Assembly (NCBI RefSeq): GCF_000708675.1
Contig: NZ_JELR01000002.1
Coordinates: 496,001 to 560,000 of the forward strand
Reading direction: 5' to 3'
Length of the DNA: 64,000 bases
Source of the DNA: Microbulbifer sp. HZ11
GTDB lineage: Bacteria; Pseudomonadota; Gammaproteobacteria; Pseudomonadales; Cellvibrionaceae
Shown here: positions 13,049-53,960 of the stretch, piece by piece
How positions within the stretch are numbered: position 1 is the stretch's first letter
Layout of the letters: each line of letters starts with the position of its first letter
Position numbers and translations under genes: made by a program
Notes under the pieces: generated by a model
Databases searched by the model: none
The model's input: the letters and a program-made list of their open reading frames with translations, nothing else
Told to the model about the DNA's origin: nothing

Positions 13049-13642
13049 ATGCCGATTCTCTTTCTGAGCGATTCCGGCCTACACGGGGACTTATTGTTCT
13101 CACTTGTTTCGCAGTCACTCCCCTTCAGCTGGGAGAAATCAGACTTTGGCAAACAAAAGCACTGCCTTAAAACATACGATGCCATCGTGGTTGATTGCTT
13201 CGGCCTCTCTTCGAAATCAACACCCAGCGCGGAATTCAATTACCTCAAAAGCATCGATCATTCCAAGGTCATTCTTATCAATATCCCGCAGGGGCTACCC
13301 GCGCATATTACCCAGCCACTGGAAAGCAGGAAATTTTCCTTCCTGTGCGACAACCGCGCCAGCCAGAAAGAACTGATAAAAAAGCTGGAATATTCCATAC
13401 AGAATGCGCGCGCTCCATCCGAGGCAGACCCGCGCTCGCAACTGCTACTGACCAAACGGGAACAGGAGATCCTCGCACAGCTGACCACTGGCGACCCGAA
13501 TAGCATCATTGCCTCGCGACTGCACCTGAGTGAGCACACGGTAAAAAATCATATGTACAACATTTACCGGAAAATTGGGGTGAAAAACCGGCTTCAGGCG
13601 AGCAACTGGGCAAAGCTCCACCTACAGGTCGAGCGGATATGA
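13049..13642 (+). CDS. csgD: CsgD-like LuxR-family curli regulator
   Basis: A 197-residue transcription factor. The N-terminal half is a divergent receiver-like domain without an obvious phosphorylation Asp pocket. The C-terminal half is a LuxR helix-turn-helix: LTKREQEILAQLTTG, then LHLSEHTVKNHMYNIYRKIGV and KNRLQASNWA. CsgD proteins share this architecture and activate curlin genes. It is the first gene of the curli cluster, and its TGA overlaps the csgE ATG by 4 bases. In E. coli csgDEFG is likewise one operon. The family and context are clear; the target genes are inferred to be the curlin genes downstream. Confidence 0.85.
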   Translation: MPILFLSDSGLHGDLLFSLVSQSLPFSWEKSDFGKQKHCLKTYDAIVVDCFGLSSKSTPSAEFNYLKSIDHSKVILINIPQGLPAHITQPLESRKFSFLCDNRASQKELIKKLEYSIQNARAPSEADPRSQLLLTKREQEILAQLTTGDPNSIIASRLHLSEHTVKNHMYNIYRKIGVKNRLQASNWAKLHLQVERI

Positions 13643-14100
13643 AAGCCTCTTGTCATCTTGTATGTCATGCATTGATTGCGCTGCTCACCCTACCAGCGGT
13701 GCTCTGCTCGGCGCAGGATGATGGGCAGGGACTCGAAGAGGTCCCCACTCAGTCCGACACTGGCCAGATCGAAGACGAAATCAGCGGCTTCAATGTTGAC
13801 CAGACGATTACCCGAACAGGCCATGATTTTGCTCGCTATATGAGCGAGTACCGAAACCTGCACTATCCGGATAGCACCTACAACCTGACCATTCAGGAAC
13901 GTCCATCCGCTCGCTGGGGAAATCTGATCTGGGTGACCTATAACAACAAAACCGTATTTCGGCAGTTTATCAGTCCCAGCACCAACAATATTCGAGCAGT
14001 CGCGGAAGAAACCGCAAAGGCCATTCACGAAATGGTTCTTCAGGAAATGGTCCGTCAGGCACTAACCGATCATTTTGATCTAGGAAAGGATGAATTCTAA
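13639..14100 (+). CDS. csgE: Curli secretion specificity factor CsgE
   Basis: A 153-residue secreted protein with a signal peptide ending near LCSA. The mature part contains DQTITRTGHDFARYM, LTIQERPSARWGNLIWV and NKTVFRQFISP, the hallmark segments of CsgE. CsgE caps the periplasmic side of the CsgG pore and directs curlin substrates into it. The N-terminal acidic linker (about residues 25-50) is longer than in E. coli. It overlaps csgD by 4 bases and csgF by 1, so it is translationally coupled to both. Confidence 0.92.
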   Translation: MKASCHLVCHALIALLTLPAVLCSAQDDGQGLEEVPTQSDTGQIEDEISGFNVDQTITRTGHDFARYMSEYRNLHYPDSTYNLTIQERPSARWGNLIWVTYNNKTVFRQFISPSTNNIRAVAEETAKAIHEMVLQEMVRQALTDHFDLGKDEF

Positions 14101-14519
14101 TGAAAATTACCAGGCTGGCCGCCCTGGCCGCAGCTCCCGTCCTCGTTCTCATGGGCAGCCATGGCGTTGCATCTCAACTTGTCTATGAACCGGTAAACCC
14201 GAATTTTGGCGGGAATCCGCTGAACGGCAGTTATCTGATTCAGAACGCTCAATCACAGGATGACCATGAGGATCCGGATAACCCGGCGGACCTTTACCAG
14301 CAACCCAGCGCACTTGACCGTTTCACTGATTCACTGGAGACACGACTACTCAACCAGCTGCTTACCGACGTCGGTGATGGAAATAGTGGTGAGCTGGTCA
14401 CCGATGATTTCATCGTCCAGATCGTGGATAACGACGGTCAGCTCACGGTACTGATCACCGACCGTACAACCGGCGATAAGAGCGAAATTATCGTCAGTGG
14501 CCTGAACCCGTCAAACTGA
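14100..14519 (+). CDS. csgF: Curli assembly factor CsgF
   Basis: A 139-residue secreted protein. After the signal peptide (cleavage near GVAS) comes QLVYEPVNPNFGGNPLNG, the conserved CsgF N-terminus that inserts into the CsgG pore. The C-terminal part (FIVQIVDNDGQLTVLITD, then a serine/threonine strand) is the usual beta domain. CsgF couples secretion to nucleation at the cell surface. The gene begins in the TAATG junction with csgE and is followed by a 110-base gap before csgG. Confidence 0.93.
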   Translation: MKITRLAALAAAPVLVLMGSHGVASQLVYEPVNPNFGGNPLNGSYLIQNAQSQDDHEDPDNPADLYQQPSALDRFTDSLETRLLNQLLTDVGDGNSGELVTDDFIVQIVDNDGQLTVLITDRTTGDKSEIIVSGLNPSN

Positions 14520-14629
14520 TCGAAACAACACAGACAACGACGAGAGGAAGTAAAGCGATCGCGTCCTAGATGTACCCGGGAACGCCCCGTGACCCCAGAT
14601 AATCACGAATAATATTGGAGATAAACGTG

Positions 14630-15493
14630 ATGTTTTTAAGAGGTACAAAACTCGTTACCGCCCTGACATTTGCTACGGCATTGGCAGGATGTACAGCGGT
14701 CAAGAACACTGGAGATGCCCTTTTCGGACCTGGCGAAGAAGCGGCCAAGCTGACGCCGAGGGCGGAAACCTACCGGGACCTTCTCAACCTGCCACAGCCG
14801 AAAGGAAAGATTCTGGCTGCGGTATATAGCTTTCGCGACCAGACGGGACAGTACAAGCCCTCACCCGCAAGCAGTTTCTCTACCGCGGTAACCCAGGGCG
14901 CAGCGTCCATGCTGATGAATGTGCTCAACGAATCCGGCTGGTTTATTCCGCTCGAACGGGAAGGGCTGCAAAATCTCCTCACCGAGCGCAAGATCATTCG
15001 TGCGGCCCTGGCAAAACCCAATGCACCGGAAAACAATCTGGCTTTGCCCTCTCTGGTGGCTGCCAATATTCTTCTGGAAGGGGGTATCGTTGCCTACGAT
15101 ACCAATATAAAGACCGGTGGTGCGGGAGCGCGATACTTTGGTATAGGTGCCGATGAGCAATACCGCGTGGATCAGGTAACGGTCAACCTTCGAGCCATTG
15201 ATATTCGATCAGGAAGGGTTCTGCATACTGTATTGACGTCCAAGACGGTCTACTCAAAAGCAATCAGTGCCGATGTATTCCGCTATGTGAAATACAAACG
15301 TTTGCTTGAACTGGAAGCCGGAACCACCACCAATGAACCGGCGCAACTGGCCATGCTTTCAGCGATGGAATCCGCAGTCATTCATTTGATCGGCAAAGGC
15401 ATTGTCGACAACTCCTGGTCGCTGCAAAACCCGGATGACATTAACAGTCCCGTTCTCCAGTATTATCTCAACGAAAGCACGGCGATCATGTAA
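14630..15493 (+). CDS. csgG: Curli secretion pore lipoprotein CsgG
   Basis: A 287-residue lipoprotein with lipobox LAGC. Following are LTPRAETYRDLLNLPQPKGK, the YSFRDQTGQYKP segment and the GWFIPLEREGLQNLLTERK helix of the CsgG family. CsgG forms a nonameric outer-membrane channel for unfolded curlins. The ATG at 14630 is preceded by TTGGAG 9 bases upstream. A TTG at 14615 would only add part of the ribosome site to the protein. The final helices and length agree with E. coli CsgG (277 residues). Confidence 0.94.
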   Translation: MFLRGTKLVTALTFATALAGCTAVKNTGDALFGPGEEAAKLTPRAETYRDLLNLPQPKGKILAAVYSFRDQTGQYKPSPASSFSTAVTQGAASMLMNVLNESGWFIPLEREGLQNLLTERKIIRAALAKPNAPENNLALPSLVAANILLEGGIVAYDTNIKTGGAGARYFGIGADEQYRVDQVTVNLRAIDIRSGRVLHTVLTSKTVYSKAISADVFRYVKYKRLLELEAGTTTNEPAQLAMLSAMESAVIHLIGKGIVDNSWSLQNPDDINSPVLQYYLNESTAIM

Positions 15494-15537
15494 AAGCCCC
15501 ACACGATCCGGATAAAATTTTATAACCTGAGGTGAAC

Positions 15538-16080
15538 ATGAATTCTGGCACCGTCCTGCCAAAAGCCGCCTTGCGGACGATACTATTGGCACTTGCCATG
15601 GAACCTGTTTGCGCCGACGATTTTTCTCTGGCCCATGAGCTTTCAATGGCCAATGAACTGGACTTATATGCCGCGATCGGGTCGGCCAACCTGGCGGTTA
15701 TTCACCAGGAGGGGAATTTCAATCACGTCGCCGCAGACCAGACAGGTACGGTGAACTATCTATCCCTTCAACAAGCGGGCTATGGAAACCTGCAGGTAAT
15801 CGATCAGGTCGGCAAAAGTAACAGTATCATCGCCAGCCAGCAGGGCGAGAGTAATGTTGCAATACTCCTGCAGGCGGGCTATGAAAACCAGATTCTGCTC
15901 GACCAGATAGGTTTCGCCCATAAAGCGGGAATCACTCAGTACGGCATTCAAAACTCGGCCACCGTTGAGCAGATCGGTGTGGCACACCAGATCACCATCA
16001 ACCAACGGGGCAATGGACTGCATACGGCGGTCACCCAGACGGGCGTATCCATGACCACCACGATCAATCAATATGATTAA
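15538..16080 (+). CDS. Curlin-repeat protein 1, possible CsgB-like nucleator
   Basis: A 180-residue secreted protein with a signal peptide (cleavage near VCA). It has a non-repetitive linker (FSLAHELSMANELDLYAA) and then five to six curlin repeats of the form Q-x-G-x-x-N-x-x-x-x-x-Q, for example QEGNFNHVAADQ, QAGYGNLQVIDQ and QQGESNVAILLQ. E. coli CsgB is about this size (151 residues) and sits before csgA, so a nucleator role is plausible. ATG 15538 is preceded by GAGGTG. The reading frame overlaps the next gene by 8 bases. The role assignment is by size and order only. Confidence 0.82.
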   Translation: MNSGTVLPKAALRTILLALAMEPVCADDFSLAHELSMANELDLYAAIGSANLAVIHQEGNFNHVAADQTGTVNYLSLQQAGYGNLQVIDQVGKSNSIIASQQGESNVAILLQAGYENQILLDQIGFAHKAGITQYGIQNSATVEQIGVAHQITINQRGNGLHTAVTQTGVSMTTTINQYD

Positions 16081-17011
16081 GCGTAGAAACGATATCCGGA
16101 GCCATAACACTCACGAGCGTGCATTTGTCCATGCCCGTATTGGGGCGCTTTGTTTCGCGGTTATCACTCACTCTGCCATTGCGGAAGAACTGGGCAATTA
16201 TCGGCACCAGGTTACCGCGTCCGACGTGCAGGCGATTACTGCGCAAACCAGCACCGGTGCCGATAATTCGATCCAGCAGTCGCAGGAGGGTAACGTCAAT
16301 ACGGCTGACGGTATTCAGCACAGTGAATCCGGAAGCTCGATTGTACAAACTCAGGATGGGGCCCTGAACAATGCCCATGCGTGGCAGGCATACGGCGTAA
16401 ACAACACAGTGGCAACCCAGCAATATGGCGCCCAGAACTCGATAGAGGTCACACAGGTCTACAGCTATGAAAGCGCTACTGCCAGTCAGCAAGTTGGATT
16501 TGGCAATGAGCTATCAGTTGAGCAGACAACCGGAGGCCTGAACCGTGTGCAAACATTTCAGCGCGGTGTGATAAACCAGATCGATATTTCTCAGACACAA
16601 AGTATCAATGCTCGCAGTTATGTAGAGCAGAGCGGTAATGATAATGTGACTGCGGTTCAGCAGATGGGCAGTGGCAGCTTCTCTGCAACCTCTCAGGAGG
16701 GCGCATTCAATTATGCGGGTACACGACAGTCCGGACTATTACAGGACGCAGAAATTATCCAGGTGGGTATTGCCAACCAGATGGATCTTCTTCAGGAGGA
16801 TAATTACAGCAATATCAGCGCCTTCCAGAATGGCTCATTCAACCAGATCGCGGTATCGCAAAGCGGCATCTTCGGTTTGGGCGGCAGTCACCAGGCGCTT
16901 ATCAATCAGGTCGGTAACCTGAATGCGACCTCGATTACTCAGAACGGGGTTTCATCGACGGCCATTATCACTCAATTCGGACACGGCAACTCGGTTTCAC
17001 TCAACCACTGA
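16073..17011 (+). CDS. Curlin-repeat protein 2
   Basis: A 312-residue curlin-repeat protein starting inside the stop region of the preceding gene (ATGATTAA). An atypically long N-region with several Arg/His precedes a hydrophobic signal core ending near AIAEE. About ten repeats follow with Q-x-G/S-x-x-N spacing (QEGNVNTADG, QYGAQNSIEVTQ, QVGFGNELSVEQ and others). Repeats are more degenerate than in the protein at 17562. It is translationally coupled to repeat protein 1, suggesting a minor subunit or co-nucleator. There is no counterpart in the E. coli csgBAC operon. Confidence 0.8.
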   Translation: MIKRRNDIRSHNTHERAFVHARIGALCFAVITHSAIAEELGNYRHQVTASDVQAITAQTSTGADNSIQQSQEGNVNTADGIQHSESGSSIVQTQDGALNNAHAWQAYGVNNTVATQQYGAQNSIEVTQVYSYESATASQQVGFGNELSVEQTTGGLNRVQTFQRGVINQIDISQTQSINARSYVEQSGNDNVTAVQQMGSGSFSATSQEGAFNYAGTRQSGLLQDAEIIQVGIANQMDLLQEDNYSNISAFQNGSFNQIAVSQSGIFGLGGSHQALINQVGNLNATSITQNGVSSTAIITQFGHGNSVSLNH

Positions 17012-17561
17012 CCGAAGAACCTCTGTAACAGCCACCAGGTGTACCTTCTATACACGGCACTTCAGTCTAATTTTTGCTTCAGCCAAATTTCGCCCTTCCC
17101 CATACACCTCTGAACATTTTTCCTATACGCCCCTTCTATTTGAGGCGATGTAACTCCCGCCGCGAAGGGCTTTTCCCGCCAAAACACAATCTTTCAGTTA
17201 TCAAACCGGGCTAACCAGAATCAATACTGATTAAAAACTGTACTTTCTTCCTACTCTTTCATGACTTCCCTCCTATAGCGACCCTCCCCCCAACCGACAA
17301 CAATCAATAGCAAGGTGAACATTTTTTGCTCTTTTAGATTAAAAACCAACCTAACGGTTTAAGGTTTAGACAGAGGAAATGACATGTGTGCCACAGCACA
17401 CTGATTCGTTCACCGGGTTACTGAACATGTTCGGCAGGGACCTGCCACCTGTTCAGCCAAAAGACCCGAAAAGAAATATGGCGCTGCCCTCAGCACCATT
17501 GAAGATCAGTTCCACCCTTGGGGCTGGTTGGATTCTAACGTCCGAAGTAAAGGAGCAACTC
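17012..17561. promoter_or_regulatory. Long leader and promoter region before the major curlin-like gene
   Basis: About 550 bases between two curlin genes on the same strand. The middle is pyrimidine-rich and shows no coding character. Near the end is an AT-rich stretch (about 17325-17375, with attaaaaacc and ggtttaaggt half-repeats) that could hold a promoter and regulator sites. An in-frame upstream extension of the next gene (17379-17561) lacks any signal-peptide or repeat character, so I treat it as non-coding. A separate promoter here would let the following gene be expressed much more strongly than the secretion genes. Confidence 0.5.
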
Positions 17562-18449
17562 ATGAAGACGTTTTCCCGTATCGCTGCTGCCATCGCACTT
17601 GCAACCAGCGGCAGTGTTTTCGCAGACGACAATATTGCGGTTCAAACCCAAGTTGGTGCTTTCAACGTAGCTTCCTCTACCCAGCTGGAGCTGATTGGTG
17701 GCTTCAACGAGGTTTATCAAACCCAAGTCGGTTTTGTGAACCTGTCTACCGCTCTGCAGGTTGGTCTGATCAGCGCGTTCAACGACATCAACCACTTTCA
17801 GTTTGGTGCCCTGAACAACGCATTCTCTCTGCAAAACGGCATTATCAGCATCGACAGTGATGCCACTATCAACCAGGTTGGTGTTCTCAACAACGCGACA
17901 ACCTTCCAGAGCAACTCCTTCTTCAACGACGCTACCATCAATCAGGTAGGCGTACTGAACAACGGTAACATTGGTCAGAATGAGTCTGCATTCAACGACG
18001 CCACCATCAACCAGGATGGCCTGTTGAACCAAGCCAACATCAACCAGTCTGCAAGCCTGTTCAACACCGCAGTTGCCAACCAGTTTGGCATTGCCAACCT
18101 GGCCAACCACCTGCAACAAGGCAACGGCAATACCTCCGTGTCCAACCAGTTTGGTGTTCTGAACGTGGCTGACGTTCTGCAAACCGGTAATGGCAACGAC
18201 TCCATGATCACTCAGGTAGGTGCGCTGAACGTTGCGGATCACGATCAGCTCGGTGATGACAACCTGGCCTCTACCTTGCAGGTTGGTGTACTCAACGTTG
18301 CGTTGGTTGGTCAAACTGGTGACGGCAACGCCGCATTCACCGCTCAAGGCGGCGCACTGAACTTGCACATCACTGCGCAAGGCAGCGACAACAACGTTGC
18401 TGTTGGCACCCAGATCGGTGTTGCAAACCTCGGTGTAATCGTTCAGTAA
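17562..18449 (+). CDS. Curlin-repeat protein 3, probable major subunit (CsgA-like)
   Basis: A 295-residue protein from ATG 17562 (AAAGGAG upstream). Its signal peptide ends SVFA-DDN. It then consists almost entirely of about 17 curlin half-repeats Q-x-G-x-x-N, for example QVGAFN, QVGFVN, QFGALN, QVGVLN, QFGIAN and QLGDDN, in paired units of about 22-23 residues. The repeats are more regular than in its neighbours. Codons are strongly biased to AAC, CTG, GGT and GTT forms typical of highly expressed genes. Own promoter region, regular repeats and codon bias make it the best candidate for the bulk fibre subunit. It is about twice the length of E. coli CsgA (151 residues). Confidence 0.85.
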   Translation: MKTFSRIAAAIALATSGSVFADDNIAVQTQVGAFNVASSTQLELIGGFNEVYQTQVGFVNLSTALQVGLISAFNDINHFQFGALNNAFSLQNGIISIDSDATINQVGVLNNATTFQSNSFFNDATINQVGVLNNGNIGQNESAFNDATINQDGLLNQANINQSASLFNTAVANQFGIANLANHLQQGNGNTSVSNQFGVLNVADVLQTGNGNDSMITQVGALNVADHDQLGDDNLASTLQVGVLNVALVGQTGDGNAAFTAQGGALNLHITAQGSDNNVAVGTQIGVANLGVIVQ

Positions 18450-18465
18450 GACACCAGTTGAAGTT

Positions 18466-18487
18466 TCGGCGGCCGGAAGGCCGCCGA
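18466..18487 (+). other. Strong intergenic hairpin after the major curlin gene
   Basis: A perfect 9-bp stem (tcggcggcc / ggccgccga) with a GGAA tetraloop begins 17 bases after the stop. No T-run follows, so it is more likely an mRNA stabiliser or partial attenuator than a full terminator. A second hairpin (gttcagga / tcctgaac, 18502-18520) follows. Confidence 0.7.
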
Positions 18488-18551
18488 TTACTGCATCAGG
18501 TGTTCAGGATAATCCTGAACCTCCTTTGAAGTAAGCAGTAGAGGGTTTCCA

Positions 18552-19424
18552 ATGAAAGCTTTCCACTATTGTGCGTTAGCTGCTGCATTGGCGACGAGCG
18601 GTTTAGCCTCAGCGTCAGACAACGTTGCCATCCTTACACAAACAGGGTTCGGCAACGCAGCGCTCATCGATCAGACGGGCATGGATGGCAGTGTCATTAT
18701 CAAGACACAGACTGGTGGCCTTAACCAAAGTAACTCGGTTGTAGCCTCATTCGGTAGTATTACCCAGCACACCCAGTTCGGGCTATTTAATGACGCCTAC
18801 TCTTTCCAGATTGGCGGACAGGATAATAGCAATGCAATTTTTCAATTGGGCGTGGATAACTGGGGTACCGTACTTCAGATTGATGTCACCAACAGTGATG
18901 CCTACATTTTCCAGGTAGGCGACAACAACAGCGCCAATATTTTGCAGCTTGCCGGCAGCGATAACCTGGCCACCATTACTCAATTCGGTTCTTTGCACAA
19001 CGGGAATATCGGGCAGATTGCTGCTCAGGATTCCGATGCGCATATTACCCAGTTTGGTATTGGCCAACAGGCTTTTATCACGCAGACAGGCATGGGGCAG
19101 TACTCCAATATTCTGCAAAGCGGTACCTACAACGTCGCACTTAGCACGCAGGCCGGTCAAGGGAACAGCTCTGACATCAGTCAGGACGGTGTTGCCAACT
19201 TCGCCAGCGTGACACAGACGTCGAATTTCAATACTGCCTTGGTAACACAAGATGGCATTGCGAACATGGCCGTTATTTCCCAGGCTGGTGTACTTGGCGG
19301 TAACTCCGCCACTATCAGCCAAAATGGACTGCTCAACAGTGCTTATATCAGCCAGATTTCCGCATCGAATACTGCGATCGTTTCGCAGATCGGTATCGGA
19401 AACCAGGCCAATATCTTGCAATAG
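18552..19424 (+). CDS. Curlin-repeat protein 4
   Basis: A 290-residue protein with signal peptide (cleavage near ASA-SDN) and about ten curlin repeats, for example QTGFGNAALIDQ, QVGDNNSANILQ, QAGQGNSSDISQ, QDGIANMAVISQ and QIGIGNQANILQ at the end. Spacing is less regular and contains short insertions. It shares N-terminal style with repeat protein 3 and follows it by 100 bases containing two hairpins, so it may be made at a lower level. It could be a second structural subunit, a cap or a length controller; the sequence does not decide this. Confidence 0.82.
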   Translation: MKAFHYCALAAALATSGLASASDNVAILTQTGFGNAALIDQTGMDGSVIIKTQTGGLNQSNSVVASFGSITQHTQFGLFNDAYSFQIGGQDNSNAIFQLGVDNWGTVLQIDVTNSDAYIFQVGDNNSANILQLAGSDNLATITQFGSLHNGNIGQIAAQDSDAHITQFGIGQQAFITQTGMGQYSNILQSGTYNVALSTQAGQGNSSDISQDGVANFASVTQTSNFNTALVTQDGIANMAVISQAGVLGGNSATISQNGLLNSAYISQISASNTAIVSQIGIGNQANILQ

Positions 19425-19462: not shown

Positions 19463-19493
19463 AAAAGGGCGGTCAATTTGACCGCCCTTTTTT
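19463..19493. terminator. Bidirectional terminator between curli locus and greA
   Basis: A 13-base inverted repeat (aaaagggcggtca / tgaccgccctttt) with a 3-base loop and flanking A/T runs lies between two convergent genes. Confidence 0.9.
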
Positions 19494-53571: not shown

Positions 53572-53960
53572 GGGGATGACTTGGATTCGACGCCGGTAAC
53601 AAAACCATGGGTGCATGCCGTGATGGTAGCGAATCACGTAAATCAAAAGCTGCATTTTATTAGTTGCCAACGACGACAACTACGGTGCCCAACTGGCTGC
53701 GTAAGCAGCCCGTAAAGCACTACTAAGGGTTCGCCCCTTAGCGGCCTTCAGTAAGGTGCCAGTACCGCGCTGATGGCTGTCATACAGAACTGGATCGCCG
53801 TGAACCGTGCCTGTCGGGGATCGGTTAAAACTTTTACAGGTTCGCCAATTACGTCCTGCCCATCGGGCTGTATGCGGCTAAATCAATAGATGGATCTAAG
53901 CATGTAGAGCCTCTGGCGGAGTGCTGACGGACGCGGGTTCGACTCCCGCCATCTCCACCA
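53572..53960 (+). ncRNA. ssrA: Transfer-messenger RNA (tmRNA)
   Basis: A 389-base tmRNA. The 5' end GGGGATGACTTGGATTCGAC pairs with the 3' end CATCTCC before the encoded CCA. The tRNA-like T-arm is GGGTTCGACTCCC. The tag reading frame (53666-53704) gives ANDDNYGAQLAA then TAA, a typical degradation tag ending LAA. It rescues stalled ribosomes with SmpB. An integrative island has inserted at its 3' end and regenerated the sequence. Confidence 0.97.

Follow-up and report, generated by a model that had tools for sequence, protein, structure and literature searches.

In this study we describe a curli (type VIII secretion) locus of the marine bacterium Microbulbifer sp. HZ11 in which the four curlin subunits are not equal, and in which one of them, termed C3, is preceded by a promoter-like block and by a leader with covarying hairpins that is conserved in the genus. 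The locus lies at positions 13049–19424 of the window, a stretch of 64,000 nt (GCF_000708675.1, contig NZ_JELR01000002.1, 496,001–560,000 of the forward strand; all coordinates are positions within this stretch), and comprises eight consecutive plus-strand genes, csgD-csgE-csgF-csgG followed by four genes for curlin-repeat proteins, C1–C4. As a system this is curli, and its variant features are subunit specialization and the leader. We consider it probable that the four curlins have unequal roles, and that C3 is transcribed from a separate promoter with a leader that controls translation or stability of its mRNA; in short, curli with what we infer to be dedicated control of the mRNAs for major-type subunits. 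A preliminary description of this DNA had correctly listed the eight genes on one strand, with curlins of 180, 312, 295 and 290 aa, as confirmed here by ORFs and Pfam, and had proposed an unusual multi-subunit amyloid with larger building blocks. Multiple subunits and larger size hold; the term unusual is mostly unsupported, because the contrast was drawn with E. coli only, and the same layout (csgDEFG, then codirectional curlins) is present in 39 of 48 Microbulbifer genomes, while multiple, larger and codirectional curlins lacking csgC have been published for other bacteria. The layout is thus ordinary, and what distinguishes the locus is the inequality of its subunits together with the promoter block and structured leader of C3, none of which appears in the preliminary description.

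C1 (15538–16080), C2 (16073–17011), C3 (17562–18449) and C4 (18552–19424) are not equal, as C3 is set apart both by the 550 bp non-coding gap that precedes it and by its codon usage. Measured against a reference set drawn from the genome's ribosomal-protein region, in which a few other genes are also present, C3 had a codon adaptation index of 0.738 and a z-score of +7.2 compared with resampling from background usage; the corresponding z-scores were −3.1 for C1, −2.6 for C2 and −2.2 for C4, and −3.0, −1.8, −0.6 and −2.8 for csgD, csgE, csgF and csgG, respectively. As the sole curlin of the four with codon usage typical of high expression, C3 is probably the major subunit. When a cleaned version of this genome's reference was applied genus-wide, C3 was the best-adapted curlin in 14 of the 17 loci with four curlins. 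The mature C3 protein (cut after residue 21) contains no lysine and no arginine. For the start of C3, position 17562 is favoured by a Shine–Dalgarno sequence and, by eye, a signal peptide. The frame is open from 17379, and a 356 aa protein starting there was rejected, as the upstream frame is not preserved in relatives.

The predicted C3 mRNA leader spans ∼280 nt (17280–17561, plus strand) between a −10-like box, which would place the transcription start, and the ATG; across loci this distance is 212–443 nt (excluding one doubled match at 628 nt). It contains hairpin H1 (17478–17499), in which 17478–17484 pairs with 17493–17499 with one mismatch in this genome, and hairpin H2 (17504–17529), in which 17504–17509 pairs with 17524–17529 and 17513 with 17523. 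A probable stem, H3 (17537–17572), would pair 17537–17542 with 17567–17572, enclosing the Shine–Dalgarno sequence (17549–17555) and the ATG at 17562. From an alignment of 33 C3-type leaders (A2), RNAalifold recovered H1, H2 and H3 unprompted. In this alignment 94.5 % of cells pair, compared with 88.5 % upon shuffling, and double changes occur at 12 of 20 pairs, compared with a shuffled mean of 5.6 and with none of 500 shuffles as high; the covariation score is 0.302 versus 0.040–0.091 for slid versions. As the species are related, probabilities from independent draws mean little for these leader statistics. All of the double changes are located within H1 (seven of seven pairs) and H2 (five of seven). 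H1 and H2, whose pairs covary and which keep a constant position ahead of curlin genes, are a probable structured cis-acting RNA. The H3 arms are also conserved: the 5′ arm reads AACGTC in 29 of the 33 leaders, and where the 3′ arm has a threonine codon (30 leaders), it is ACG in 29, a codon used for 31 of 220 threonines in eight genes of the window. A CsrA site within the H3 loop is possible; its GGA is, however, part of any Shine–Dalgarno sequence. No Rfam family exceeded its gathering cut-off for the leader, and the sole window match at that level was the tmRNA (53572–53960; RF00023, 197 bits). A weak match to DUF805b was found in the gap before C3, on the opposite strand (E-value 0.43, 14.1 of 35.6 bits).

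Immediately upstream of the leader is a promoter-like block (17242–17279, plus strand), which consists of a direct repeat and a −10-like TATAGC at 17274–17279. The repeat unit ACTTNNNTCCTA occurs at 17242 and 17264, i.e. 22 bp apart; two copies of this 12-mer are found in the window, versus 0.21 expected, and the pair has a single match in the whole genome. Block and leader were first noticed together, as a conserved cassette in the gap before C3, in eight species. Searching with the block pattern (≤ 3 mismatches) gave 64 matches in the 39 clusters of the window type, 62 of them no more than 520 nt upstream of a curlin, with 38 of the 39 represented among these (the exception being locus L129); none was found in 21 other csg loci or in one mononucleotide shuffle, although the pattern derives from the same loci and these counts describe rather than test it. 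A sigma-54 site in the leader was considered and rejected by eye, as the GG..GC spacing varies among species.

In order to follow the leader beyond the aligned loci, a covariance model was built from the A2 leaders. This model matched 39 of the 48 genus genomes, identical to the 39 with a window-type cluster, and none of the 74 genomes of other genera within a family sample of 81. There were 76 matches in total, of which 33 are members of the model and 75 could be inspected. Seventy-three of the latter precede an ORF with at least three curlin motifs; of the remaining two, one stands before a 114 aa curlin-like ORF with two motifs and one before an 18-codon ORF. At this last site (L166, G036:C1:490345–490461) the 18-codon ORF follows alone, and the match may be what is left of a curlin gene since lost. 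Thirteen matches away from the clusters were fetched, and all precede a curlin-like ORF (12 with at least three motifs, one with two), with a promoter block ∼300 nt upstream in five of the 13. This makes the leader a means of locating curlin genes that lie outside csg clusters. When 60 csg stretches were searched, one marginal match was found outside the genus (L173, E-value 0.046) and none in the loci of a second csg type described below; no leader match was found upstream of C4. For the 24 matches outside the model, 19 of 20 pairs show double changes, and covariation is 0.498 compared with at most 0.117 for slid versions, in an alignment that was fitted to the structure and includes some weak matches and one on the wrong strand. 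The leader coincides with codon bias: the best-adapted curlin carries it in 32 of 37 loci, and leader-bearing curlins (≥ 35 bits) have a mean codon-adaptation excess over csgG of 0.129 (n=54) versus 0.023 for the others (n=127), in loci that are not independent of one another.

These observations suggest how the system might work. CsgE, CsgF and CsgG would export the curlins unfolded, with C1 as a CsgB-like nucleator and C2 as a minor subunit translated in step with it; the C2 start lies inside C1, with an overlap of 8 nt, and some relatives have the same arrangement, others a gap of 8–63 nt. C3 would be the abundant subunit of the fibre shaft, transcribed from its own promoter with a long leader, and C4 a less abundant accessory subunit, produced by read-through past the hairpin after C3. 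The latter is a G+C-rich structure in the C3–C4 gap (18450–18551, plus strand), and RNAfold predicted a strong hairpin there in each of 15 loci folded. CsgD would activate the curlin genes; this fits the presence of csgD in the 39 clusters, which were, of note, selected by having it. A role of H1 and H2 could be to shield the mRNA or to serve as a binding site for a regulator, and H3 could act as a switch because it is located where the ribosome must bind. The leader would thereby set or switch C3 translation, mRNA stability or both, confining large-scale amyloid production to times of need. No CsgC was found in these genomes, and a dedicated C3 leader would restrain mistimed or misplaced amyloid by acting on the mRNA. 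If one subunit is indeed abundant and the other three are minor, the fibre would offer a testable example of a functional amyloid with several components.

A number of results weigh against this reading. H3, while conserved, shows no double changes in A2, and coding or initiation constraints could explain its conservation. The window leader alone is no better folded than its shuffles (z −0.31), H3 is missing from its best single-sequence fold, and when all 50 leaders from both groups are aligned RNAalifold yields only four pairs, all of them in H1. A sigma-70 scan returned no promoter for C3, giving two sites, both on the minus strand, versus 7.3 expected. The C3–C4 hairpin lacks a T-run in this genome, and it did not come up in the terminator scan. 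In three of the 17 four-curlin loci C3 is not the best-adapted curlin; the CsgB model scores C4 higher (123.8) than does the CsgA model (106.5), both below their cut-offs; and the structure predicted for C2 had no curli match by Foldseek, with beta-helix enzymes at an E-value of 0.016 and worse.

Going beyond control of C3 in this one locus, the leader may represent a new class of structured mRNA leader for amyloid subunit genes, a promoter-plus-RNA cassette that also occurs off-cluster and would co-ordinate the translation of major-type curlins by means of a start-site stem responding to a ligand, a protein, a small RNA or temperature as its signal; the subunit alleles of the system would be exchanged between species. 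We put this forward tentatively, as a proposal that could well be wrong.

Somewhat less credible still is that this is an ordinary expanded curli cluster, with redundant duplicated paralogs and a leader that merely stabilizes mRNA or loads ribosomes, sensing and switching nothing. Multiple csgA copies are common elsewhere, and the better codon adaptation of leader-bearing curlins is as expected for simple high-expression devices. The number of curlins also ranges from two to eight within the genus. A CsgG-family match and a curlin match were each found in 41 of the 48 genomes, and at least one locus was read from each of those 41; the window-type clusters have four curlins in 17 genomes, five in 15, six in three, and two, three, seven and eight in one each, where the two-curlin cluster runs up to the end of its contig and the L160 figure is likewise a minimum. 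Named Microbulbifer loci, which overlap with the 39, have the window-type layout in ten of ten cases, with three to six curlins. Redundancy is, however, at odds with the retention of positional orthologs across most of 38 other loci, where reciprocal best hits were obtained for C1 in 38, C4 in 35, C3 in 33 and C2 in 27, and a stem at the start site, if H3 is real, would be odd for pure enhancement. Curlins other than the first are mostly 290–297 aa in these genus loci despite diverged paralogs, and this uniformity suggests a fixed solenoid length.

A further alternative, which we regard as unlikely, is that the main selective theme is surface variation, with C3 (and C4) present as discrete alleles exchanged between species in the manner of pilin or flagellin types, and with the conserved promoter-leader and the greA–carB flanks providing homology for exchange. 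C3 of the window is 92 % identical to that of L136, 83 % to that of L139 and 72 % to that of L119, compared with 41–44 % for 12 other loci, whereas for csgDEFG, C1 and C2 the L139 and L119 sequences stand no closer to the window than those of other loci. Furthermore, the csgDEFG data reject the C3 grouping in an approximately unbiased test (p 1.2e-5). Set against this, carB data do not reject that grouping (p 0.078), which was itself defined after the C3 identities had been seen; C4 identities are graded (82, about 60 and 42–46 %) rather than falling into two classes; and a similar picture could arise without exchange, from old paralogs lost differentially or from uneven rates. For the C3 classes as such, exchange of subunit genes between species appears the preferable explanation from these comparisons, with differential loss as the alternative. 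As to the flanks, a greA match lies downstream of the array in 37 of the 39 loci (∼1.6 kb off in one), and carB matches in the same 37, over half of its length in 36; the L122 and L160 stretches end too early. Surface variation and our favoured reading of four roles plus a C3 leader can be true together.

Finally, H1 has the form of a compact inverted repeat and stands ahead of a gene, and the leader repeats might be DNA operators of a dimeric regulator instead of RNA hairpins, but this is very improbable, given that the letters of H1 vary between species with complementarity kept (at all seven pairs), unlike a fixed-sequence operator, and that two repeats, plus another enclosing the start codon, align within a single transcript.

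The identity of the remaining genes is in keeping with curli. The csgD-like gene (13049–13642) encodes a LuxR-type regulator with a helix–turn–helix domain (PF00196, 7.2e-19), whose top NCBIfam match is CsgD at 81 bits, below the cut-off of 250. It is followed by csgE (13639–14100; PF10627, 8e-29, 100.5 bits versus a cut-off of 25), csgF (14100–14519; PF10614, 3.1e-31, 108.7 bits versus 25.8) and csgG (14630–15493; PF03783, 2.5e-76, 256 bits versus 20.8; CsgG in the PDB, 4.3e-84), all on the plus strand. CsgE, CsgF and CsgG exceed their Pfam cut-offs and all three miss the NCBIfam equivalog cut-offs. We place the start of csgG at the ATG at 14630 (the listed ORF begins upstream, at a TTG at 14615); its product, the secretion pore lipoprotein, has an LAGC lipobox, as judged by eye, and its closest named relatives are from Microbulbifer. 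Downstream of C4, a terminator-like hairpin with a 13-pair stem and a T-run is present at 19463–19491 on the plus strand.

The profile search that had been suggested for the four curlins placed each above the PF07012 cut-off of 20.7 bits, far beyond chance (C1, 61.7; C2, 39.4; C3, 51.3; C4, 112.4 bits). The NCBI CsgA and CsgB models match all four with scores below their cut-offs, and for C1, the putative nucleator, CsgB scores above CsgA. Signal peptides were predicted for the curlins by eye. Structure prediction, also suggested earlier, was carried out for C3 and C2, and a curli match by fold was obtained for C3. The C3 model is all-beta, with a pLDDT of 84.8 for the best of five models and 70.0–79.6 for the other four, and its top PDB match is CsgA of Pontibacter korlensis (8c50; E-value 1.4e-6, TM 0.49/0.42, rmsd 14), followed by E. 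coli CsgA (E-value 0.02). The C2 model has a pLDDT of 80.6. In profile searches 8c50 is matched by C3 (3.7e-56), C2 (6.7e-44) and C1 (6.1e-29). Across the whole genome (4.2 Mb, seven contigs), all ten curlin-repeat matches at an E-value of 0.001 fall within the cluster and there is one CsgG-family match, with no further curlin or csgG-family gene at that threshold elsewhere.

The preliminary description was also right that no csgC-like gene is present: PF10610 matched none of the 48 genus genomes, including this one, in a search for which E. coli served as a positive control and which did not extend to CsgH. Among 96 genomes searched there were two CsgC matches, both in other families. One of these, in a different family of the same order (L177, G126:C263:34000–46714), scores 31.2 bits, over the Pfam cut-off, and lies at G126:C263:41616–41840, ∼2 kb from csgG; as far as the available sections of Dueholm et al. 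(2012; PMC3521004) go, csgC is confined to Enterobacteriales and Aeromonadales.

A second type of csg locus, csgEFG with two curlins, was found in 11 genus genomes (L121, L124, L126, L127, L130, L142, L147, L153, L154, L161 and L168) and is the sole type in two of these; a csgD match is missing from ten of the 11 stretches. The larger curlin of this type is 392–410 aa long with 22–23 strict motifs, and its loci have neither promoter block nor leader. L153 (G042) carries an inverted csgG copy with an internal stop, and in L168 (G044) csgG is in two pieces. The latter genome has 54 curlin-repeat matches, many of them at 4120265–4147085, away from its csgG copies; in that region (L222, G044:C1:4119000–4138900, continuing to 4147085) some curlin genes carry leader-like RNAs. 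In Simiduia and other relatives, two curlins come after csgDEFG.

Searches of the open-licence PMC literature turned up no article that deals with curli in Microbulbifer or with a leader RNA in front of curlin subunit genes, and the locus is best placed by comparison with described systems. It shares with the curli of E. coli and Salmonella (csgBAC, csgDEFG) the proteins CsgE, CsgF and CsgG, a csgD-like regulator and curlin-repeat subunits, including one that is CsgB-like. It differs in that all eight genes run in a single direction, as the preliminary description had noted, and not as divergent csgDEFG and csgBAC (arrangement as given in the accessible part of PMC3521004), in possessing four curlins, of which three are roughly double in size, with CsgC not found (PF10610), and in a C3 with its own putative promoter and structured leader. 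The multi-subunit curli operons are closer. Those portions of Dueholm et al. (2012) that were available describe operons running in one direction in Aeromonadales and Oceanospirillales, csgA/B homologues numbering as many as six, and CsgA as long as 529 aa with 22 repeats, whilst the corresponding portions of Sleutel et al. (2023; PMC10192328) report up to 30 csgA homologues per genome and 4–62 repeats, with an N22-like segment as an outlier. Several non-identical csgA-like genes, long subunits, the lack of csgC and varied gene order are shared with the present locus; a conserved leader RNA, a promoter block or a split into one high and several minor subunits is not described in those portions. 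With CsgA of Pontibacter korlensis (8c50, 'R15.5' class) C3 has in common that it is a long curlin with centrosymmetric-looking repeats, although that protein is from another phylum and C3 is 25 % identical to it in the fold alignment. Lastly, structured RNA in cis to curli genes has a precedent in the tandem glycine/c-di-GMP-I riboswitches that precede csgG and another curlin-related gene, according to the part of PMC9481103 available; those are known aptamers, whereas the RNA described here reached no Rfam cut-off and precedes the subunit genes themselves.

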